Part shown: positions 5,168 to 22,746 of the stretch, piece by piece | How the letters are laid out: every line of letters begins with the position of its first letter | Numbering within the stretch: the first letter of the stretch is position 1 | Assembly (NCBI RefSeq): GCF_900115825.1 | Contig: NZ_FOXW01000001.1 | Location: forward strand, 372,001 to 436,000 | Source of the DNA: Desemzia incerta | Lineage (GTDB): Bacteria; Bacillota; Bacilli; Lactobacillales; Carnobacteriaceae | Length of the DNA stretch: 64,000 nt | Reading direction: 5' to 3' | The notes under the pieces: model-generated | Database searches by the model: none | Told to the model about the DNA's origin: nothing | Seen by the model: the letters and a program-made list of their open reading frames with translations, nothing else | Made by a program: the position numbers and the translations under genes

Positions 5168-5278
5168 AAGATTCCTTTCAAATGATAAGCGAACATAGTT
5201 CTTAAATGATTGATTTTTTGATACACTAATAAGCATGCAACAAACACAAAAAATTATGATGTAGAGAGAGTGGAGAAA

Positions 5279-5980
5279 ATGGCATTTGTTAAAATAAAAG
5301 ATGAATACAAACGCTATAAAATGGGGGAAACGATCGTCGCTGCGAACGATGGAGTTTCATTTGAAATTGAAGAAGGTGATTTCGCTGTCATTGTAGGTCC
5401 AAGTGGTGCGGGGAAGACAACCGTTTTGAATATTTTAGGCGGAATGGATACGGCTGATGAAGGTTTAGTGGAAATTGATGGTATCGATATTTCTGATTTC
5501 GACAGTAAACAATTGATTCGTTACCGTAGAGAATCAATTGGCTTTGTGTTTCAGTCGTATAACTTAGTGCCCAACTTAACGGCAAAAGAAAATGTCGAGT
5601 TAGCTTCAGAAATCTCAGTCAATGCTTTAGATCCGGAGAAAGTTCTCCAAGAAGTAGGGCTAGGGCACAGAATGAACAATTTCCCTGCTCAATTGTCTGG
5701 TGGAGAACAACAACGGGTAGCAATCGCAAGGGCATTAGCGAAACAACCGAAATTGCTGCTTTGTGATGAGCCGACTGGTGCATTAGATTATGAGACGGGA
5801 AAACAAGTATTGAAGTTATTGAAAGACACTTGTGAAAACTACGGAACAACAGTCATAGTGATTACTCACAATCAAGCCATCACCCCGATTGCTGACCGTA
5901 CGATTGAAATCAATAATGCAAAAGTACGAAAAGTCACCCTTAACCCTAACCCTAAATCTGTATCAGAAATAGAATGGTAG
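5279..5980 (+). CDS. ABC transporter ATPase, MacB/LolD type
   Basis: A nucleotide-binding subunit of about 233 residues. It has Walker [11 protein letters not shown]-loop [12 protein letters not shown], signature LSGGEQQR, Walker [13 protein letters not shown] and switch His ITHN. The DEPTGALD box and compact size place it with the LolD/MacB/FtsE-like ATPases that pair with FtsX-fold permeases. Such a permease starts 10 bp downstream. A GTG at 5270 would add three residues, but the AGAGAG at 5264-5269 suits the ATG at 5279. It probably powers mechanotransmission or export rather than import; the cargo is unknown. Confidence 0.92.
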
Positions 5981-5990
5981 AGGTGAGACT

Positions 5991-8900
5991 TTGAAGAAGA
6001 AAGCATTGTGGAAAGATATATTTCGAGAAATTTCTAAATCAAAGATGAGATTTCTATCCATCTTTTTGATTATTTTACTTGGTGTAGCATTTTATTCTGG
6101 AATCAAAGCCACTAGTCCTGACATGATCGATACAGCAGATACTTACTATAGAAAACAAGACTTAATGGACGTAAAAGTTTTGTCGACGTACGGTTTAACA
6201 GAAGAGGATATTCAGTTGTTGGAACAAATGGAAGGAAACTCTGTTGAAGCTGCTTATACACAAGATGTCATTTTAGAAGAAACAGATTTGACCACAAAAG
6301 TAGTCAGTTTGCCAAATGATCAAAAAAATGACTTGAACAAACCGTTGATCGTTGAAGGAAGACTGCCTGAAAAATCGGGTGAGATTGCTTTAGACGCGAG
6401 AAGCGCGTACGCAGAAGAATACGCGATTGGAGAAACGGTTACTTTCAAGACAGATGATAATGCTGTTGATTTAGAAGACTCCTTTACGGGATTGTTATAC
6501 GAAGTCGTGGGATTTGTGAATTCGCCTCAGTTTATTGAAAATAATGCCAGAGGAAATACGTCTATCGGGGCTGGGACATTAGATGGCTTTGCGTTTATAC
6601 CAGAAAAAGATTTCACGTTAGACGTGTATACGGAAGCCTATTTGACTTTTGCGAACGTCAAAGATTCTCAATCGTATTCAAGTGAATACGAATCTCAAAT
6701 TGAGGACAATCAAACAGCAGTAGAAGAACTGTTAAAAGATCGTCCCGAAGAGCGCAGAGATGAGATTACCCAGCGGATTCAAGATGAAATTGATAAAGGG
6801 CAAGCTGAAATCGATGATGGGTTAAAAGAAATAGAAGAAGGAAAACAAGCTTTAGAGGATGCAGAAGCAGAATTGGCAAATGCTCGAGCTGAATTAGATG
6901 AAGGTTGGCAAGAGTATGAGAATGGTATAGAAACGTTTGAAACAGAAATTGCCGATGGACAAGCTACGATTGATCAGAAAAGACAAGAACTTGAAAATGC
7001 ACGTATAGAGATTATCGATGGAAAAGCAGAACTTGAGGTTGCCCAAGAGGAATTAGATGAATCTAGAGCTATGTTGGAACAAGAAAGAGCAAATGCTGAA
7101 ACACAAGTAGCCAACAGTACAGCAGCTATCCAAAATGCTCAAGAAACCATTGTTGTTCCGATAAATTCAATTCCTGCACAGCAGCAAAATACTTTACTTA
7201 GTGGAGCACAAGCTATCAGTCCTGAAATGACTGGCTTAATAAGAGGATACTTTGATGGAACTGTTCCTGCCCAGACTGTATTAGATGCTGTCAATGAAGT
7301 AGAAGCAGCTTCTGCTGAAGATGAATCCTCAGAAAATCGTGAGAGTTTGGCAGAATGGATCACACTCGCACGTTCTGTTGTTCAAATACCAGGTATGAGT
7401 GTGTCATTGAATACACAAGTCCAAGTGGTCGAACAACTGCGAACGATGGATGTGCAACTAGGCGATTTGATGAGTCAGTATTACGATGGAGCAGTACCGC
7501 CAAACAATACGATTGAAGCTTTAAGTTCAGCAGAATCCCGTGTAAATGCTATTGATCAACAATTGGATGCTTACGAAGCTGAGTTGAATGCCGGACAAAA
7601 TCAAATCAACCAGCAAAGAGCTGAACTAGAAGCAGCGGAAACAGAAATCGCTAATGGTCAAGCTGCTCTTGAAGAAGCACAAAATCAACTGTATCAAGAA
7701 ACAGAAAATAGGCAAGCAGAATTAGAGGAAGCTCGTTTAGAACTAGAACAAGGTGAAGAAGAATACGAAGACGGCCTGGAAGAGTTTGAAACTGAAAAAT
7801 CAGATGCAGAAACAGAAATTGCAGATGCAGAAACAGAAATCGCTAAGGGTCAAAGAGAATTGGATAAAGCAAAAGCTGAACTGGAAGATATCACTTTACC
7901 GGAATATTATGTTTTAGATCGAACAACTAATCCAGGATACGCTGAATTTAAAGACAATGCAGAACGTATTGCCTCTATTGCACAAGTATTTCCAGTGTTT
8001 TTCTTCTTGATAGCAGCACTGGTTTCCTTGACCACTTTAACGAGAATGGTAGATGAACAACGTACACAAATTGGGACTTTAAAAGCTTTAGGATACACAA
8101 ACTGGGATATTTCTAAGAAATTCTTAGTTTACGCTACACTGGCTAGTTTATCAGGAGCAATGATAGGGTTGATTATTGGGTTCCATTTGTTCCCGACGAT
8201 CATCATTAATGCCTATGGATCCCTATATAACCTTTCAGAGGTCCAAATCAGTTATTATCCGCAAGACATGGCGATTTCCTTGCTCATTGCTTTCTTGTGT
8301 ACTAGTGTAACGGCGTTCGTAGCTGTTCGAGTATCCTTACAAAGCAACGCAGCAGAATTGATGCGGCCAAAAGCACCAAAAGTTGGGAAACGGATCTTAT
8401 TGGAACGAGTTCCTTTCATTTGGGACAGATTTGCGTTTACCCAAAAGATTACTGCACGAAACCTTTTCCGCTACAAGCGAAGAATGTTTATGACGGTCGC
8501 CGGTATCGCAGGATGTACGGCTTTGCTGTTGACTGGGTTTGGTTTATCAGATTCCATTTCCGATGTGGGCGGTTTGCAGTACGGAAAAATCAATCAATAC
8601 GATGGAATCATCGCTTTAGACACAGATGCTGAAGAGATAGAAAAAGAAGAATACACTCAATTGATTGCCGAAACTCCAGAAATCACTTCGACATTGAATG
8701 TGTATCAAGAAATTTACCAAGCAGAAGAATCAGGTGTGAATCCACAAGATGTCACTCTGTTTGTTCCTGAATCTACTGATCAATTGGCGGATTTCGTACG
8801 ATTGAATGATCGCTCTTCTGGAGAAGAATATGAATTAAGCAATGATGGAGCCATTATCAGTGAAAAATTAGCAGATTTATTTGATCTTCAAGTGGGAGAT

Positions 8901-9575
8901 ACCCTTTTACTGGAAGATGCAGATAATGAACAAATAGAAGTGACCGTTGACCAGATCACAGAAAACTACTTGCAGCATTTTGTTTATCTGACTCCTGAAT
9001 ATTATGAAACAGTAGTAGGAGAACTACCGGAAGCTACTACACAGTTAGTGAACTTCAACGAATCTGCAAGTTGGGAGAATGATTTTGGTCAAGAATTGAC
9101 TCAATTGGATGCTGTTCTGGGAGTAACGTTTACGAGCGTTATTAGTAACTCTTTTAAAGACACATTAGAGAGTTTAGTGATCGTAACACTTGTATTAGTC
9201 GTTTCAGCAGCTTTACTAGCTTTTGTCGTGTTGTACAATTTGACCAACATAAATGTATCTGAAAGGATTAGGGAATTGTCGACTATTAAGGTGCTTGGTT
9301 TTTATGACAAAGAAGTCACAATGTATGTTTACCGGGAAAACTTCTTGTTGACCTTAATGGGAATCGTTGTAGGACTCGTTTTAGGATTGATTTTACATGG
9401 GTTTGTATTGAATACAGCAGAATTGGACATTATGATGTTCAGCCCAGTGATTGCAGTCTCCAGTTACATTTATTCCGCATTGTTGACCATACTCTTCTCC
9501 ACACTCGTTATGGTGTTTATGCATGTCAAATTGAAAAACGTCGACATGTTGGAAGCTTTAAAAACAATCGAATAA
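5991..9575 (+). CDS. Giant FtsX-fold ABC permease with extracellular coiled-coil stalk and duplicated tip
   Basis: A 1194-residue permease translated from a TTG with AGAGGTGAG just upstream. TM1 is at about residues 17-40. An outer domain follows, then a long heptad-rich helix (about 225-385), a globular stretch (about 385-525) and a second heptad-rich helix (about 525-645). The first FtsX module (three TMs, about 655-800) comes next, then a second outer domain and a C-terminal FtsX module (about 1060-1190). The two helices probably form an antiparallel stalk. The globular tip contains an internal repeat: YFDGTVP at 420-426 and YYDGAVP at 497-503, with similar flanks, 77 residues apart. It partners the preceding ATPase. 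Giant permeases with coiled coils are known in Firmicutes; cargo unknown. Confidence 0.9.
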   Translation: MKKKALWKDIFREISKSKMRFLSIFLIILLGVAFYSGIKATSPDMIDTADTYYRKQDLMDVKVLSTYGLTEEDIQLLEQMEGNSVEAAYTQDVILEETDLTTKVVSLPNDQKNDLNKPLIVEGRLPEKSGEIALDARSAYAEEYAIGETVTFKTDDNAVDLEDSFTGLLYEVVGFVNSPQFIENNARGNTSIGAGTLDGFAFIPEKDFTLDVYTEAYLTFANVKDSQSYSSEYESQIEDNQTAVEELLKDRPEERRDEITQRIQDEIDKGQAEIDDGLKEIEEGKQALEDAEAELANARAELDEGWQEYENGIETFETEIADGQATIDQKRQELENARIEIIDGKAELEVAQEELDESRAMLEQERANAETQVANSTAAIQNAQETIVVPINSIPAQQQNTLLSGAQAISPEMTGLIRGYFDGTVPAQTVLDAVNEVEAASAEDESSENRESLAEWITLARSVVQIPGMSVSLNTQVQVVEQLRTMDVQLGDLMSQYYDGAVPPNNTIEALSSAESRVNAIDQQLDAYEAELNAGQNQINQQRAELEAAETEIANGQAALEEAQNQLYQETENRQAELEEARLELEQGEEEYEDGLEEFETEKSDAETEIADAETEIAKGQRELDKAKAELEDITLPEYYVLDRTTNPGYAEFKDNAERIASIAQVFPVFFFLIAALVSLTTLTRMVDEQRTQIGTLKALGYTNWDISKKFLVYATLASLSGAMIGLIIGFHLFPTIIINAYGSLYNLSEVQISYYPQDMAISLLIAFLCTSVTAFVAVRVSLQSNAAELMRPKAPKVGKRILLERVPFIWDRFAFTQKITARNLFRYKRRMFMTVAGIAGCTALLLTGFGLSDSISDVGGLQYGKINQYDGIIALDTDAEEIEKEEYTQLIAETPEITSTLNVYQEIYQAEESGVNPQDVTLFVPESTDQLADFVRLNDRSSGEEYELSNDGAIISEKLADLFDLQVGDTLLLEDADNEQIEVTVDQITENYLQHFVYLTPEYYETVVGELPEATTQLVNFNESASWENDFGQELTQLDAVLGVTFTSVISNSFKDTLESLVIVTLVLVVSAALLAFVVLYNLTNINVSERIRELSTIKVLGFYDKEVTMYVYRENFLLTLMGIVVGLVLGLILHGFVLNTAELDIMMFSPVIAVSSYIYSALLTILFSTLVMVFMHVKLKNVDMLEALKTIE

Positions 9576-9603
9576 AACAGACATTAATCAGCTTCTTGAG
9601 AAC

Positions 9604-9645
9604 TAAAAAAGTGTTGATCGTATTTTGCGATCAGCGCTTTTTTGA
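9604..9645 (+). terminator. Rho-independent terminator of the ABC exporter pair
   Basis: A 16-bp stem, A-rich at its foot with two G-U pairs (9605-9620 with 9627-9642), ends in a T-run 30 bp after the permease stop. Confidence 0.88.
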
Positions 9646-9747
9646 TTTCTCCCCTAGACTCTTCTGACTACAGCTCACTTCTTTGCTATAATAAATTAAG
9701 AAGAGACTGCTGAAAATGGCGGAAATATACAGAAAGGAGGGGATCGT

Positions 9748-10719
9748 TTGTCGCTTAGTTTGCGGACCCTAAAAATAGCACTTTCAACAGTAGCCGCTAT
9801 TTTTATTGCGGACTTATTTCATTTGGAGTCAAGCATCTCGGCAGGGATTATTGCTATCTTGAGTGTTTTAGATACTCGTAAAACATCTTTGGAAATAGCC
9901 GTTCAACGTGTGGTTTCAACAATATTGGCTTTAGGAATAGCTGCTGTATTATTTAATGTACTGGGTTTTTCTACAGCAGTATTTGGATTATATTTATTGT
10001 TCTATGTTCCTAGTGCGTATAAACTAAACGTTCAGTCGGGTATTGCGCCTTGTTCAGTCTTGGTGACTCATTTGCTGCTGGCAGAAAGTACTGCGCTTGG
10101 ATTGCTGTTTAATGGATTAAGCTTGATGCTGATAGGAGCAGGTATGGCCTTGATAGTGAATTTATATATGCCTTCTCAAGAGAATAAAATCGCAGATATC
10201 AGAACTCAAGTCGAAGAACAAATGAAGGTGATTTTATTTCAATTTGATCACTTTTTACAAAATGGAATCGAAGAGGAAATCTCAGACAAAGACTTGGTTC
10301 AGTTGAACCATTTGTTGGAACAAGGCATTCGATTGTCTCGCGCAGAAGCTGAAAATCGATTTATCGATCAATCGTATTATCATTTTCGCTACTTTGAAAT
10401 GAGAAAGAGTCAAGCAAGAATCTTGGAGCAAATGCAATGGAATTTGAAGCAAATTTCAATTCCGCTTCAACAAAGCAGAATTTTAGCTGGAATGTACTAT
10501 TTAACAGCTGAAACCTTGCATGAGTACAACCCGGGAATCAATTTATTGGAAGAAATCGATCAGTTAACAGATGTATTCAGAGAAAGCGATTTGCCTGAAA
10601 CCAGGGAAGAGTTCGAAAAAAGAGCAGTCCTCTTTCAACTATTGAATGACTTTGAACGTTTCATTCAAATAAAGAAAGATTTTTATGACGAATACAGTAA
10701 AGAATGGTTTGCATTATAA
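9748..10719 (+). CDS. Aromatic acid exporter (ArAE/DUF939) family membrane protein
   Basis: A 323-residue protein starting at TTG 9748 behind the strong AGAAAGGAGG at 9731-9740. The N-terminal half (about 1-140) is a bundle of hydrophobic helices beginning RTLKIALSTVAAIFIADLF. The second half is soluble and helical, with YYHFRYFEMRKSQARILEQM typical of the ArAE_1 C-terminal domain. Known relatives are implicated in export of aromatic acids or stress metabolites, but most Gram-positive members are uncharacterised. It is monocistronic, with a promoter-proximal strong ribosome site and a perfect terminator behind it. Confidence 0.83.
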   Translation: MSLSLRTLKIALSTVAAIFIADLFHLESSISAGIIAILSVLDTRKTSLEIAVQRVVSTILALGIAAVLFNVLGFSTAVFGLYLLFYVPSAYKLNVQSGIAPCSVLVTHLLLAESTALGLLFNGLSLMLIGAGMALIVNLYMPSQENKIADIRTQVEEQMKVILFQFDHFLQNGIEEEISDKDLVQLNHLLEQGIRLSRAEAENRFIDQSYYHFRYFEMRKSQARILEQMQWNLKQISIPLQQSRILAGMYYLTAETLHEYNPGINLLEEIDQLTDVFRESDLPETREEFEKRAVLFQLLNDFERFIQIKKDFYDEYSKEWFAL

Positions 10720-12278: not shown

Positions 12279-13157
12279 ATGGAAACATTTTTTCAACAAA
12301 TGATAAATGGACTATCGTTGGGTAGTATTTATGCTTTGATTGCTCTAGGTTATACAATGGTTTATGGAATTATAAAATTGATTAATTTTGCTCACGGGGA
12401 CATTTATATGGTTGGAGCGTTTATCGGATACACCATGATTCATTCTTTTGGAATGGGATTTTTCCCTGCTCTTCTTACAGCAATGGCATTAAGTGCACTC
12501 TTAGGCGTTTTAATTGAGCGCATTGCTTATAAACCCTTACGTCATGCTACTCGAATAGCCGTTTTAATCACAGCTATCGGCGTCTCTTATCTATTGCAAA
12601 ACGGGATGCTTTATTTCTATGGTGCAGAGGTACGCTCGTTCCCACAAGTCGTCGACAATACACTTTTTGAAGTCGCAGGGTTGCAAGTGAGTCGGATCCA
12701 ATTGTTGATATTTGCGACAACACTTGTTTTGATGGTCTTGTTGCAGTTCATCGTTCAAAAGACGAAAATGGGGAAAGCTATGAGAGCGGTAAGTACCGAT
12801 TCATCAGCAGCTCAATTGATGGGGATCAATGTCGACAACGTCATCTCTTTTACTTTTTTCTTAGGCTCGGCTTTAGCAGGAGCAGCAGGAGTATTAGTAG
12901 GCTTGTACTACAACACGATTGATCCAATGATGGGGGTAGCTCCTGGTCTTAAAGCCTTTGTAGCTGCAGTTCTAGGAGGAATAGGCTTCATTCCTGGTGC
13001 GGTACTTGGCGGTTTTACTATAGGGATAGTAGAAACTTTGGTCAGTGCTTATGGAAACTCCATGATTCGTGATGCAGTAGTATATGGGATCTTGATCCTT
13101 ATTTTAATTATTCGTCCTGCCGGCATCTTAGGAAAACATGTTAAAGAGAAAGTGTAG
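12279..13157 (+). CDS. livH: Branched-chain amino acid ABC transporter permease LivH
   Basis: A 292-residue inner-membrane subunit. The N-terminus NGLSLGSIYALIALGYTMVYG and the following INFAHGD are the textbook LivH signature. Seven to eight hydrophobic segments follow, with AFVAAVLGGIG near the coupling region and the RPAGILGK tail. It pairs with LivM to form the channel energised by LivG and LivF. AGAGAGG lies about 8 bp before the ATG. The livM start is 8 bp beyond its stop. Confidence 0.95.
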   Translation: METFFQQMINGLSLGSIYALIALGYTMVYGIIKLINFAHGDIYMVGAFIGYTMIHSFGMGFFPALLTAMALSALLGVLIERIAYKPLRHATRIAVLITAIGVSYLLQNGMLYFYGAEVRSFPQVVDNTLFEVAGLQVSRIQLLIFATTLVLMVLLQFIVQKTKMGKAMRAVSTDSSAAQLMGINVDNVISFTFFLGSALAGAAGVLVGLYYNTIDPMMGVAPGLKAFVAAVLGGIGFIPGAVLGGFTIGIVETLVSAYGNSMIRDAVVYGILILILIIRPAGILGKHVKEKV

Positions 13158-16372: not shown

Positions 16373-17371
16373 TTATTCAAAATCGTAACACAAGCCCCAT
16401 TGTTCCCGCAAGTTATCCATGATAGACATCACATCATGAGTCAATTGAATGTGCTTGTTCGGTGCTTGTTGTAAAATGTTGCTCGTCATCAATTCGATTT
16501 CATAATTTAAAGCTTGATTAGAGTCGCCCGCTGTCACGGTTTCAGAAGAACCATCTGGATACGTAATGGTTGCAGTATTGGCTCTAGGGTAATCTTCAAC
16601 AGTAATAAAACCATTTTCAAAAGCAACGATACCCACTTTAGGCATCTTAGCACGGAAAGTCAAACTGACGACAGCCATTTCATTATCTGGGTTTTTCAAA
16701 ATGACAGCAGATTGCTCATCGACACCCGTTTCATATGGATTCATAGTTGTTAAAATCTCAGTAGGTTGGCTGGATAAGAAGAATCGAGTAAAGGCTAAAG
16801 CATACACTCCAATATCCAATAAAGCTCCGCCTGCAATCTCTTTATTAAAGAAGCGGTTAGTCGGATCAGCTTCTTTCAAGCTTCCAAAAGAAGCTTGAAT
16901 CATTTTCAATTTGCCTAGTTTTCCAGTGGAGATGATGTCTTGCAATTTATGGTAAAGAGGCATATGGTAAATTGTCATTGCCTCAGCTAAAATCAGATTT
17001 TTTTCTTCAGCTACAGCTAAAGCTTCGTCCAACTCTTTATTGTTCATAGTGATTGCCTTCTCGCACAATACGTGTTTACCAGCTCGCAAGCTTTTTAAAA
17101 TATACTTTGCATGATGGCTGTGCGGAGTAGCGATATACACGACATCAATATCCGGATCAAACAACATTTCTTCGTAATTTCCATAAGCTTTTTCAATCCC
17201 GTACTTTTCCGCAAATGCATTTGCTTTGTCCAAATTACGTGAAGCCACCGCCAGCAAAGTAGCTTGTTGGACATTAAAATCTTTAGCAAAACTGGATGCG
17301 ATATCTCCTAAACCGATGATTCCCCAATTAACAGTTGTCATATAGTATTTTAGAAACTCTCTATCATTCAT
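16373..17371 (-). CDS. Gfo/Idh/MocA-family oxidoreductase
   Basis: A 332-residue NAD(P)-dependent dehydrogenase. The Rossmann motif WGIIGLGDIA is at about residues 16-25 and IDVVYIATPHSHHAKY marks the next strand. The family EKP motif appears as CEKAITM, with Ala in place of Pro. GGALLDIGVYAL is the substrate-domain segment of the dihydrodiol/glucose-fructose type. Start choice is unsure. AGGAGG lies 19 bp before the ATG at 17371, which is far, while the family start would be the Met at 17341, which has only a weak site. Substrate unknown; probably a sugar or polyol derivative. Confidence 0.88.
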   Translation of the reverse strand: MNDREFLKYYMTTVNWGIIGLGDIASSFAKDFNVQQATLLAVASRNLDKANAFAEKYGIEKAYGNYEEMLFDPDIDVVYIATPHSHHAKYILKSLRAGKHVLCEKAITMNNKELDEALAVAEEKNLILAEAMTIYHMPLYHKLQDIISTGKLGKLKMIQASFGSLKEADPTNRFFNKEIAGGALLDIGVYALAFTRFFLSSQPTEILTTMNPYETGVDEQSAVILKNPDNEMAVVSLTFRAKMPKVGIVAFENGFITVEDYPRANTATITYPDGSSETVTAGDSNQALNYEIELMTSNILQQAPNKHIQLTHDVMSIMDNLREQWGLCYDFE

Positions 17372-19054: not shown

Positions 19055-19098
19055 AGAATAAGTGCAACTAATGATATGAAATGAACGGAGTCTTAACA

Positions 19099-19905
19099 AT
19101 GAAATTGAAATTATGGGCAACAATGCTAGCAGTAGGGTTATTGGCTGGGTGCCAAAATGAATCTACGGATGTAACGAATGAATCCACATCTTTAAACAGC
19201 GAAGAAGTCAGTCAGGAATCTGAAGAATCAACGGCTCTGACGCCGGAAGAAGAAAAAGAGCAGGAGATGATCGCTGCATTACCAGATGTATCGACAGCAG
19301 ATTGGAATTTGGTTTTGGTCAATAATTGGCATCCGATTGATGAGACGGTTGAGATTCCATTGGAAACAGTAGCTGATCAAAAAGAAGTCGATGCTCGTAT
19401 AGTAGAGCCTTATACGAATTGGATGGAAGCTGCCAAAAAAGCAGGTTATACAATTTTCTTAGCTTCCTCTTACCGCTCAATTGAAAGGCAGCAAGCTAAT
19501 TATGATGCCAGCATTCAAGGTTACATCAATGAAGGCTACTCTAAAGAAGAGGCTATTGAAAAAACGGAAGACTATATTGCTGTTCCTGGAGGCAGTGAAC
19601 ACCACACTGGTTTAGCACTGGATATGGTAGATAATGAATGGCTCAGTACAGGAAAAGGGTTAGTGCCGGAATATGACACGCAAGAATCCCAACAATGGCT
19701 GGTCAGTACGGCAGCGGACTACGGATTTATTCTGCGTTTTCCTAAAAATAAAGAAACAGAGACGGGTATTCAATACGAGTCTTGGCATTTTCGTTATGTA
19801 GGAGTAGAAAATGCTCAATTTATCCAGCAGTATGGATTGTCTTTGGAAGAATACATTGAGCTTCTTGAAAAAGCTGGAAAAACAGGAGAACAAAGGATAG
19901 AATAA
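19099..19905 (+). CDS. VanY-type D-alanyl-D-alanine carboxypeptidase lipoprotein
   Basis: A 268-residue lipoprotein. Signal peptide MKLKLWATMLAVGLLAGC has Cys18 as lipid site, then a Ser/Glu-rich linker to about residue 60. The metallopeptidase domain shows SSYRS, SEHHTGLALDM (the S-x-H-x-x-G-x-A-x-D zinc motif) and SWHFRYVG (the H-x-H-type zinc ligand region). Such enzymes remove the terminal D-Ala from peptidoglycan stem peptides outside the membrane. The GGAG at 19087-19090 fits the ATG at 19099, not the in-frame ATG at 19081. It starts a wall cluster with the glucosaminidase and PBP. No vancomycin-resistance genes accompany it, so a wall-maturation role is likelier. Confidence 0.92.
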   Translation: MKLKLWATMLAVGLLAGCQNESTDVTNESTSLNSEEVSQESEESTALTPEEEKEQEMIAALPDVSTADWNLVLVNNWHPIDETVEIPLETVADQKEVDARIVEPYTNWMEAAKKAGYTIFLASSYRSIERQQANYDASIQGYINEGYSKEEAIEKTEDYIAVPGGSEHHTGLALDMVDNEWLSTGKGLVPEYDTQESQQWLVSTAADYGFILRFPKNKETETGIQYESWHFRYVGVENAQFIQQYGLSLEEYIELLEKAGKTGEQRIE

Positions 19906-19942
19906 CTCGTTTTTATCCTAAGTTGTGAAAGGAGCAGTCAAG

Positions 19943-20575
19943 GTGGCGCAGGCGAAGAAAAAGAAGAAAACGACGTACAGAAAAAAAAGTGCTAAACAAA
20001 GACGCTTGTTACCTAGTCGCATACTAATGGTATTATTTGTCTTGTTTTTTGTTTTTTTTGGAGCATTAACTTTTTTGGGGAAATCCATTATCGAACCGTT
20101 GAATTCGAGTCGAGAAAAAGAAGAGTTTATCGTTCAAATTTCTGGTCATGCAAAAATATTGCAAGAACAATACGATTTGCTGCCTAGTATCAGTATCGCT
20201 CAAGCTATCTTAGAATCAGATTGGGGGACGAGTGAGTTGGCAACTGAGAATAAGAATCTCTACGGCATAAAAGGCAGCAGTCCAGAAAATACGGTTATGA
20301 TGGAAACAAAAGAGTTTGAAAACGGAGAGTGGATCGAGATAAAAGCTCCTTTTAGAAAGTACGACACTTGGCAAGAGTCAATGGATGACCATGCTCTATT
20401 ATTTGTCAATGGGACCAACTGGAATGCGGATCAGTATACAACGGTGCTGACGGCTGAAAATTATCAAGAAGCTGCACAAGCCTTACAAGATAATGGTTAT
20501 GCCACAGACCCCACTTATGCAGAAAAGCTGACTCGTTTGATTGAACAATATCAGCTTCATCATTACGATGATTAA
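19943..20575 (+). CDS. Membrane-anchored glucosaminidase (GH73, LytG/FlgJ-like)
   Basis: A 210-residue protein starting at GTG 19943, where AAAGGAG (19928-19934) gives 8-bp spacing; an upstream in-frame GTG overlaps that site. A very basic N-terminus (AKKKKKTTYRKK) is followed by one membrane segment (about 31-52), then the glucosaminidase domain. SISIAQAILESDWGTSELA carries the catalytic Glu, and NLYGIKGS and FRKYDTWQESMDDHA are further GH73 signatures. It cleaves the glycan strand of peptidoglycan. No wall-binding repeats are present. It sits 37 bp after the carboxypeptidase and before the PBP gene. Confidence 0.92.
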   Translation: MAQAKKKKKTTYRKKSAKQRRLLPSRILMVLFVLFFVFFGALTFLGKSIIEPLNSSREKEEFIVQISGHAKILQEQYDLLPSISIAQAILESDWGTSELATENKNLYGIKGSSPENTVMMETKEFENGEWIEIKAPFRKYDTWQESMDDHALLFVNGTNWNADQYTTVLTAENYQEAAQALQDNGYATDPTYAEKLTRLIEQYQLHHYDD

Positions 20576-20706: not shown

Positions 20707-22746
20707 ATGTCGACGAATCAACCACAAAGAAAACGAGGGTTGAGTAAACCAATGTGGATAGCAGTTGTTGTCTTTTTAGTAGCTGTTATCAGCGTAATCG
20801 GTTGGATGGCTTGGTCATATTTTAACGGGAAAAATTCAGATTCAGCTGCAGCGGAAGAAAAGTCTCAAGAATTTATTGCTTACTTAGAAGAACAAAATTT
20901 CTCTGCGTTACCTACTGTATTAAATGAATCCTCATTGGTTGATGCTGGATTTACAAAAAAGCAAGTAGAAGAATTGTATCAGAGTTCTTTTAATGAAATG
21001 CAAGTGAATGATGTTGAAGTAACGGATGTAGTGTTTAATGAAAACGAATCGGATGATGTGATGGAATTTTCATATGTCCTAAACTTCGTGACACCAATTG
21101 GGACAATGGAAAACCTACCCTATTCGGCTACTTTAACAAAAGGTGCTGAAGAGGAGTTTTTCGTGGATTGGCAGCCAAATCTCGTCTTGCCTGATATGGA
21201 GCCCGGAGATGTAGTTGAGGCACAATTTGAAAAAGGCGAACGGGGTAAAATTGTGGATCGAGACGGAGATCCATTGGCAACAGCTGGTGTTTGGATGAGA
21301 GCTGGTCTTTATCCTGGAGCATTAGGCGAAGAAGATGCACGAACAGATAATCTCACAAAAATTAGTGAAACGTTTGAAGTTTCAGTAGAGTACCTTGAAG
21401 GATTGTTGGAACAAAGCTGGGTTACGGAAGATACTTTTGTGCCGTTTAAAACAATAGCCTCCGATGAGACTGAGGAATTGACAGGTGTAATGTATCAAGA
21501 GGTCAGCATGCGGACTTATCCTTTGAATGAAGCTACAGCTCATTTAATCGGCTATGTTGGCGAAGTGAATGCTGAAGAGATCGAAAAGAATCCAACGTTG
21601 ACTGCTGGGGAAATCGTCGGAAAATCTGGGCTGGAAGCTGCTTATAATGAGCGGTTACGCGGCAAATTTGGTGGTTCAATCGTACTAAAAGATGGGAAAG
21701 GAACGACGAAAACCGTCTTAAAAGAACAAGAAGTTCAAAATGGGGAAGATATCCAGTTAACGATCGATGCAGATGTGCAGCAAAAAGCTTATGAAGCACT
21801 ACAAGAGAAAAACGGATCTGTAGTAGCCATGGACCCTGAAGACGGGAGCTTGTTAGCTCTTGTCAGTACTCCTTCATACGATGCAGGGTTGATGACGAGA
21901 GGGATTACCAATGAAGCTTACCAAGCTTATCTGGATGATGAAAATACACCATTTCTTTCCCGGTATACAGCTCGTCTGGCACCAGGATCAACGTTTAAAT
22001 TGATCACAGCAGGAATTGGTCTTGATTCAGGGACGACAACTCCTGAAGAAGTACACGAAATCGATGGAGATACTTGGCAGGCGAATGAGTCATGGGGAAA
22101 TTATGCCGTACATCGTGTAACCGAAGTGGATAACGTTTCTTTAAGAGAAGCATTAGTTTATTCAGATAATATTTTCTTTGCTCAAGAAGCTTTAGAGATG
22201 GGGCAAGAGACGGTTGAAAAAGGCATGAGCAACTTTGTATTTGGAGAAGAGTTCGATTTGCCGCTAGTTATGCAGCCGGCTCAATTGTCCAACTCTGGCA
22301 AACTGGATTCTGAGATTCTATTAGCCGATACGGCTTATGGACAAGGAGAATTGTTGATGAGCCCTATTCAACAAATCGTATCGTATAGTGCATTTTTGAA
22401 TGGTGGAACAATGATTTATCCGAAATTGACCAGTGATCAAGAAACAGCTGAACCTAAACAAGTAGTGTCTAAAGAGTCCGCTGATTTGATTCGTTCGTAT
22501 TTGCTTGAAGTTGTAACGGATGAAAATGGAACAGCTCACGAATTAGCTGATCTGCCTTACTCAATTGGCGCAAAAACAGCAACAGCTGAATTCCAAAACG
22601 TAGACAAGAACAATGGGTTCGTTTTGACATTTGATGCAGAAAATAATTCTTATATGATGTTGGGAATGTTGGAAGAAAGTGCAAGTGGAGAAGTAATCGA
22701 GTTATTAAAACCTGTCTTAGAAGAAATGCCGAAGTTATTGCAATAA
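20707..22746 (+). CDS. Class B penicillin-binding protein of the PBP5/MecA (PBP3) type, KTA variant
   Basis: A 679-residue transpeptidase, close to the usual length of this group. TM anchor is at about 17-36; the MecA_N (NTF2-like) domain covers about 45-160. The dimerisation domain (about 170-320) contains RGKIVDRDG. The catalytic domain has the active-site Ser428 in STFK and the SDN triad at 486-488. The third motif reads KTAT at 623-626 instead of KTGT, so Gly is replaced by Ala. AAAGGAGG lies 8 bp before the ATG. Enterococcal PBP5 and staphylococcal PBP2a of this architecture bind beta-lactams poorly; whether this one does is unknown. Confidence 0.93.
   Translation: MSTNQPQRKRGLSKPMWIAVVVFLVAVISVIGWMAWSYFNGKNSDSAAAEEKSQEFIAYLEEQNFSALPTVLNESSLVDAGFTKKQVEELYQSSFNEMQVNDVEVTDVVFNENESDDVMEFSYVLNFVTPIGTMENLPYSATLTKGAEEEFFVDWQPNLVLPDMEPGDVVEAQFEKGERGKIVDRDGDPLATAGVWMRAGLYPGALGEEDARTDNLTKISETFEVSVEYLEGLLEQSWVTEDTFVPFKTIASDETEELTGVMYQEVSMRTYPLNEATAHLIGYVGEVNAEEIEKNPTLTAGEIVGKSGLEAAYNERLRGKFGGSIVLKDGKGTTKTVLKEQEVQNGEDIQLTIDADVQQKAYEALQEKNGSVVAMDPEDGSLLALVSTPSYDAGLMTRGITNEAYQAYLDDENTPFLSRYTARLAPGSTFKLITAGIGLDSGTTTPEEVHEIDGDTWQANESWGNYAVHRVTEVDNVSLREALVYSDNIFFAQEALEMGQETVEKGMSNFVFGEEFDLPLVMQPAQLSNSGKLDSEILLADTAYGQGELLMSPIQQIVSYSAFLNGGTMIYPKLTSDQETAEPKQVVSKESADLIRSYLLEVVTDENGTAHELADLPYSIGAKTATAEFQNVDKNNGFVLTFDAENNSYMMLGMLEESASGEVIELLKPVLEEMPKLLQ

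Follow-up and report, generated by a model that had tools for sequence, protein, structure and literature searches.

A duplicated tip unit, putatively a contact head, on the predicted coiled-coil stalk of a type VII ABC permease in Desemzia incerta

The window analysed here, a stretch of 64,000 nucleotides of Desemzia incerta (contig NZ_FOXW01000001.1, positions 372,001 to 436,000), encodes an ABC ATPase of 236 aa (5270..5980, +; Pfam ABC_tran, 1e-35) and, ten bases further on the same strand, a permease of 1194 aa with a TTG start and two FtsX domains (5991..9575, +; Pfam FtsX, 7e-31). The permease reaches 107.2 bits against PF02687 (cutoff 25.5), in two separate stretches. Its hydropathy peaks, grouped by hand where they overlap, lie at about residues 24-42, 660-678, 711-741 and 761-779 in the first half and at about 832-850, 1063-1081, 1113-1140 and 1147-1177 in the second, i.e. 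each half consists of one TM segment, a large extracellular domain and three further TM segments. The corresponding loops are residues 43-659, the long region between TM1 and TM2, and residues 851-1062; by analogy with the family, residues 43-659 would lie outside the cell. The FtsX-like permease domain, this topology of the halves, and an adjacent ATPase of the LolD/FtsE/MacB type identify the protein as a type VII (MacB/FtsX) ABC permease. The ATPase has DevA, FtsE and LolD as its best NCBIfam relatives (best 25 of 191 families), none of which passes its cutoff. In the 81 loci examined, 57 ATPase ORFs end at most 200 bases upstream of the permease. Permease matches below 1e-100 occur in 52 of the 59 sampled relatives, and Paenibacillus, Listeria, Enterococcus, and many clostridia also contain relatives. 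In Listeria, lmo0195 may be a homologue, on which the literature search yielded one proteomics paper.

A number of more specific identities were considered and rejected. The permease scores 46.8 bits against ADOP (TIGR03434), far from the curated cutoff of 622.3, and 26.9 bits against the FtsX of FtsEX in its Gram-negative model (TIGR00439, cutoff 255); no Gram-positive FtsX model is among its NCBIfam matches. BceAB is excluded by topology, because the extracellular regions follow TM1 and TM5 by hydropathy, whereas the available part of the MacB review places the large extracellular domain of BceAB between TM7 and TM8 of ten (PMC5985334). EsaA/YueB and Pip (PIP_EF, YhgE) share with the window protein a long extracellular region between TM1 and TM2, but they are described, in the portions of the sources at hand, with six TM segments (PMC13059805, PMC4999554). 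The permease has about eight such segments plus FtsX domains, and no Pfam or NCBIfam match ties it to these families. Matches to DUF4407, SMC, and Rad50, all below their cutoffs, reflect coiled-coil composition.

The preliminary description had proposed a coiled-coil stalk outside the cell that bears a duplicated tip between two heptad-rich arms. This picture holds: hydropathy delimits the loop between TM1 and TM2 at residues 43-659, the arms change length in lockstep, and AF2 predicts a pair of long helices with short ones between them. The AF2 model of residues 201-660, built with 25 sequences, is weak overall (mean pLDDT 79.6, pTM 0.50); its two long helices lie at 251-386 and 504-632, and several short ones cluster between them. 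The first long helix is arm 1 of the stalk (6741..7148, +; blocks mostly at pLDDT 82-98, with 77, 64, and 45 toward the tip) and the second is arm 2 (7500..7886, +). At 0.15 nm per residue, these predicted helices of 136 and 129 residues would measure about 20 and 19 nm.

With arm 1 counted between conserved residue 233 and the tip, and arm 2 between the tip and conserved residue 639, the lengths of the arms are demonstrably matched. Among all 24 orthologues that bear the helical unit of the tip (hereafter the knob), the two lengths correlate with r = 0.994, and in 18 of them arm 1 exceeds arm 2 by exactly 29 residues. These 18 fall into four length classes: 143/114 (n = 13), 150/121 (n = 2, the window protein and L002), 164/135 (n = 2), and 224/195 (n = 1). 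The remaining six differ by 22, 22, 24, 25, 27, and 42 residues, and both with a difference of 22 come from the same contig (L019 and L053, each counted in the 24). Four classes sharing one difference imply at least three length changes, each matched in both arms; since 13 of the 18 exact differences belong to a single class, it is only these three changes that test the lockstep. Paired antiparallel arms explain the pattern simply, and the lockstep thus speaks for an antiparallel hairpin, about 20 nm long, whose apex carries the knob. Relative to most single-copy relatives of the family, the arms of the window protein have 150 instead of 143 and 121 instead of 114 residues. By these alignments, the window protein and L002 have gained one heptad per arm, which alignment A3 places approximately at residues 281-287 of arm 1 (6831..6851, +) and 619-625 of arm 2 (7845..7865, +).

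The stalk varies across orthologues. Orthologues of Alkalibacterium and Vagococcus without a detected knob have stalks of 209 and 131 residues, respectively, and in L092 (Paenibacillus silagei) 62 residues separate the anchors, i.e. the protein is nearly stalkless; the stalk itself may consequently be dispensable in some lineages. In many orthologues the apex is no more than coiled coil or a short segment. We also observed that many stalks of the window's family, Marinilactibacillus, and Paenibacillus are exactly 316 residues long, with or without a knob. In L078 (Atopococcus tabaci, permease at 5944-9804) the 481-residue stalk appears, by eye, to be extended by long coiled-coil repeats (LLAAQEGLEQIQAAESQLDAAQE..., LAAAQDGWELFETAESELATAQE...), and the apex of L017 is of a different type, a proline- and serine-rich insert (PNPDKPKPPTESSSSDSSSS...).

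The duplication was proposed from two motifs, which lie as described: YFDGTVP starts at residue 420 (7248-7268) and YYDGAVP at residue 497 (7479-7499), 77 residues apart, and the helices that follow them (LDAVNEVEAA and IEALSSAESR) are alike and in register at +77. A comparison of the two halves by Smith-Waterman gives a score of 66, attained in none of 5000 shuffles (maximum 54); the corresponding scores of L002 (75) and L003 (115) were likewise not reached in 5000 shuffles each. When the first unit is slid without gaps over 379 positions (residues 231-620), its score peaks at 65 at residue 460 and exceeds 11 nowhere else. We built a 60-position HMM from ten single-copy orthologues (L006, L008-L015, L024), which belong to other genera of the window's family and carry the motif once each, excluding the window sequence. 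This profile matches the window protein at residues 384-439 (4.6e-14, 45.0 bits) and again at 460-512 (2.8e-6, 20.1 bits), and it also matches L002 (1.8e-9, 1.6e-7) and L003 (9.5e-16, 5.7e-16) twice. When it was run against 5000 shuffled window stalks, 2957 were reported, with a best domain score of 13.6 bits and a next best of 6.6. Orthologues with a single motif are clearly related in sequence. The shuffles, the profile matches and the sliding control all support the repeat, and the duplication in the permease tip is real.

The claim stood less well in its extent. The preliminary description had split a region of about 150 residues into two similar halves; the halves are indeed related and 77 residues apart, but the shared unit covers only about 57-60 residues and is followed by a 17-residue spacer. 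Copy 1 spans residues 383-442 (7137..7316, +; 8.3e-22 with the iterated HMM), the spacer residues 443-459 (7317..7367, +), inside a predicted bridging helix at 442-464 and outside the shared unit, and copy 2 residues 460-519 (7368..7547, +; 2.7e-19 with the iterated HMM). The ends of the arms were rejected as part of the repeat: outside the unit, identity at +77 in the window protein is only 0-1 in 15. The copies are 20% identical over 60 residues in the window protein and 40% in L003, and across nine aligned tip units only P, Y, and G are invariant, which look structural. Copy 1 has no Pfam match, the nine units together gave only single-member matches (E 0.07-0.12), and no PDB sequence matches the tip better than E 0.13.

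The models predict the same helices in both copies. In the model of residues 201-660, the helices of copy 1 lie at 396-409, 411-421, and 427-442. Copy 2 has no aligned homologues in this model and falls below pLDDT 50 at about residues 466-505; even there, the low-confidence model already starts helices at 473 and 504. A separate alignment intended for both copies (A4) placed every homologue on copy 1. A second model, of residues 440-592, forced the single-copy homologues to align to copy 2 alone. It has a mean pLDDT of 90.3 and places helices at 473-486, 488-498, and from 504 onward into arm 2, i.e. the three helix starts and the first two helix ends are all displaced by exactly 77 residues from those of copy 1. 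The helix preceding each unit ends at 386 and 464, a displacement of 78. AF2 therefore predicts the halves to be alike, with the proviso that both models draw on the same homologues, such that their agreement is not independent proof. A Foldseek search with the copy 2 model returned nothing below E 0.8. VIA-align gave a superposition on a histidine phosphotransfer four-helix bundle (Z 9.3; 91 residues at 2.9 A), but by the guidance of the tool itself such a score is ordinary among helical bundles, and we treat this as a common arrangement. That the protein carries a hairpin with two knobs in series seems to us close to certain.

Sequence searches confine the doubled knob to one clade of the genomes covered. 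The iterated HMM detects the unit in 24 of 110 orthologues, once in 21 and twice in three, and fails to detect it in the other 86; two of these give marginal matches (E 0.039 and 0.23), which means that some labels of absence may hide diverged units. With a nine-unit profile, the unit occurs in 27 of 395 genomes of the order (nine of 80 genera), and only G000, G001, and G005 have two matches. In the class sample it occurs in three of 398 genomes (G000, G005, and one more with a single match), and in the phylum sample in one of 398, the window's own. A search of the window's own genome revealed no further unit, the next match having an E of 0.21. The places of the unit in the order sample are those expected for the permease, with 28 of 30 in open frames of 1096-1271 residues; the other two lie in a frame of 580 residues (E 4.1e-17) and one of 443 residues (E 5.3e-4).

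The history of the unit was traced on a tree of the core (equivalents of residues 637-1194) for 50 of the 110 rows, which omits clostridial orthologues except L042 and L045, and also L053 and L073, which share contigs with L019 and L020. On it, the three proteins with two copies group as a single clade (94/91; 92% of bootstraps), such that the doubling probably happened once. This clade adjoins rows of Atopococcus, Marinilactibacillus, and Alkalibacterium without a detected knob, and the labels none, one, and two require seven changes on the tree. In the tree of the units, the first copies group together (80/75) and so do the second copies (68/86), both weakly, which is consistent with a doubling before the split of the two genera. 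The duplication is old, and a single knob would be the ancestral state. Between the window protein and L002, identity is 56% in the tip, 72 and 68% in the arms, and 87 and 91% in the FtsX domains; the low conservation of the tip is in keeping with a contact head but also fits relaxed constraint. In a separate observation, L024 (from G006, in the window's family) groups with Paenibacillus on the core tree (93/86, long branch), possibly following horizontal transfer.

The surroundings of the permease give it a plausible wall-related setting. The window contains a MocA oxidoreductase gene (starting at 16373), a VanY-type D-Ala-D-Ala carboxypeptidase gene (19081..19905, +; Pfam VanY, 6.1e-35), and a gene for a glucosaminidase, a peptidoglycan hydrolase (19925..20575, +; Pfam Glucosaminidase, 1.6e-38), separated from the permease by other genes, including branched-chain amino acid transport (Pfam BPD_transp_2 at 12279). 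Clustering of 782 ORFs from 81 loci, over 16 kb that end short of the window's own VanY and glucosaminidase, recovered the ATPase in 65 loci, an antisense shadow in 10, a TetR regulator in eight (Pfam TetR_C_8), a sulfatase in seven, a histidine kinase, MocA, and the glucosaminidase in six each, VanY in five, and smaller clusters. The 16 loci where the ATPase is missed result from the longest-ORF filter, at least partly through displacement by antisense ORFs. Permease, MocA, VanY, and glucosaminidase recur together across much of the order. After the glucosaminidase, the window also encodes a penicillin-binding protein with a MecA_N domain (20707-22746), relatives of which are near the permease in L034, L073, L078, and L087.

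Genome-wide distances were taken between the best places of permease, glucosaminidase, and VanY among the matches listed, in the 52 genomes with a strong permease match (seven of 59 have none, and weaker VanY places were set aside). In 35 of the 52, no more than 40 kb separate the glucosaminidase from the permease; two spans of this size, one to either side of a given position, make up about 3% of a genome of 2.5 Mb. All 35 glucosaminidase genes share the strand of the permease and 30 lie downstream of it; the distances range from 0.6 (G035) to 36 kb. In the other genomes it is on another contig (seven), far away (five), or without a match among those listed (five). These gene-order counts are raw: 17 of the 35 near cases belong to the window's family, which may simply share gene order, and the rest to five other families. 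VanY adjoins the glucosaminidase in 31 of 35 genomes compared. Distances from glucosaminidase to permease shrink to 0.6-5.7 kb in some genomes of families f1, f2, f4, f6, and f8, and the closest spacing (0.6-2.1 kb) occurs in f6 genomes without a knob. The glucosaminidase is no nearer in knob-bearing than in knob-less genomes. Since the closest cases lack the knob, the wall context says nothing for the knob itself.

Comparison with known systems suggests how such a protein could work. Type VII permeases (MacB, LolCE, FtsX, YbbP; PF02687) resemble the window protein in their FtsX domains, which are two here, in their separate ATPase, and in a large extracytoplasmic region after the first TM segment of each half, but differ in that the first of these regions holds, in the window protein, a coiled-coil hairpin of some 400 residues whose helical knob is duplicated. 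Searched with Foldseek, the stalk gives three matches at E 0.001 or better, and the hairpin coiled coils of PrgA (6z9l; E 0.0038), Rad50, MukB, and Smc match it as coiled coils, with TM-scores by query length of 0.20-0.25 for Rad50, MukB, and PrgA; they have no relation to the tip. PrgA is part of a conjugation plasmid system. In FtsEX it is the hydrolase partner, PcsB or CwlO, that contributes the coiled coil, whereas in the window system the coiled coil is part of the permease itself. The accessible parts of two papers describe FtsEX with PcsB or CwlO as a case of mechanotransmission by an ABC3 protein to wall hydrolases via an extracellular loop (PMC6355983, PMC6705773). A hydrolase gene also recurs near permeases of the window type, where an interaction is a candidate. 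In its available part, the MacB review describes no stalk like this one and gives ATPase-driven movement to the extracellular domain as the mechanism of the family of MacB, LolCDE, and FtsEX (PMC5985334). A precedent for the stalk is the EsaA ectodomain of the Staphylococcus T7SS, given as about 20 nm long and predicted to span the wall in what is accessible of its source (PMC13059805).

Putting these elements together, we favour, by a slight margin of belief, a wall-reaching hairpin with a duplicated putative contact head. The permease of this type VII pair very probably projects from its first extracellular domain an antiparallel coiled-coil hairpin of about 20 nm, the apex of which is a small helical knob: two short helices ending in Y-F/Y-x-G are followed by a third that continues as the return arm. 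About 77 codons were probably duplicated in frame in the common ancestor of the window's genus and one other, leaving two knobs in series. The stalk would bring the knobs into the outer part of the wall or up to it. The family mechanism suggests movement from the ATPase to the extracellular domain, and ATP-driven movement of the transmembrane part might be passed along the hairpin, by analogy with MacB and FtsEX. The knob could then serve as an accessory head for contact, docking on a component or an enzyme of the wall, and two of them could make that contact larger or bivalent. The preliminary description had likewise suggested a binding surface, perhaps for a wall polymer, a hydrolase or a peptide; the recurring neighbours make a link to the wall plausible for the transporter as a whole. 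To touch something in or at the wall from the end of the stalk would be the simplest role for the knob, and this part, taken separately, is tentative, with the arguments for and against it nearly balanced. The unit was detected in only 24 of 110 orthologues; transport therefore need not involve it, and any binding would be optional or lineage-specific, unless the unit is elsewhere too diverged to detect.

Three other explanations must be weighed against this one. That the two motifs resemble each other by chance, in a helical region of low complexity, might seem to be favoured by the low identity of the copies in the window protein, but it is refuted by the profile matches, the shuffles, the single optimum in register and the coincident helix boundaries, and by the greater identity of the repeat in L003. 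A different view accepts the repeat and sees the tip as a surface recognised by phages or bacteriocins, where losses, replacement, and duplication would be means of escape, in analogy with the variable region of PIP_EF. The seven changes of label on the core tree and the lower conservation of the tip compared with the core go in this direction. So do precedents in the accessible parts of the literature, where a variable extracellular region of about 160 residues in PIP_EF determines phage tropism (PMC4999554) and YueB, a homologue of EsaA, is the receptor of SPP1 (PMC13059805). Yet in two pairs compared within genus g3 the tips share 84 and 75% identity, hence are not hypervariable in a comparison that uses one genome per species, and we consider this explanation unlikely.

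The alternative that comes close in weight to the reading of the knob as a contact head is that it is a structural cap, which closes the hairpin and binds nothing, and that its duplication is neutral or tunes the length of the stalk. This would be in line with the nature of the invariant residues, with the many orthologues whose apex is simply coiled coil or a short segment, and with the independence of the wall-enzyme neighbours from the knob. It accounts less well for the conservation of a recognisable domain from Paenibacillus to Carnobacteriaceae, which is more than a cap for a loop seems to need, or for the fact that both copies in the window protein are still recognisable after diverging so far. 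A pure cap is possible, and we rate it somewhat below a contact head.

Our study describes a stalk on which we found no paper among open-licence full texts. A broader and more speculative idea, which we regard as doubtful, is that the permeases of this family are ATP-driven rods that span the wall and carry exchangeable heads, i.e. an FtsEX-like arm for the control of wall cutting that brings its own coiled coil. The matched arms would set its reach, and different lineages would gain, lose, replace, or double the module at the apex to suit the target at hand, for instance a wall polymer or the product of the neighbouring glucosaminidase gene; the window protein would then represent the form with two heads. 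Independently of this idea, the matched arms give a clean architectural prediction for the stalk of the permease, the recurring glucosaminidase gene provides a first candidate partner, and the orthologues with two, one, or no detectable knob are natural variants with which the role of the tip can be probed.
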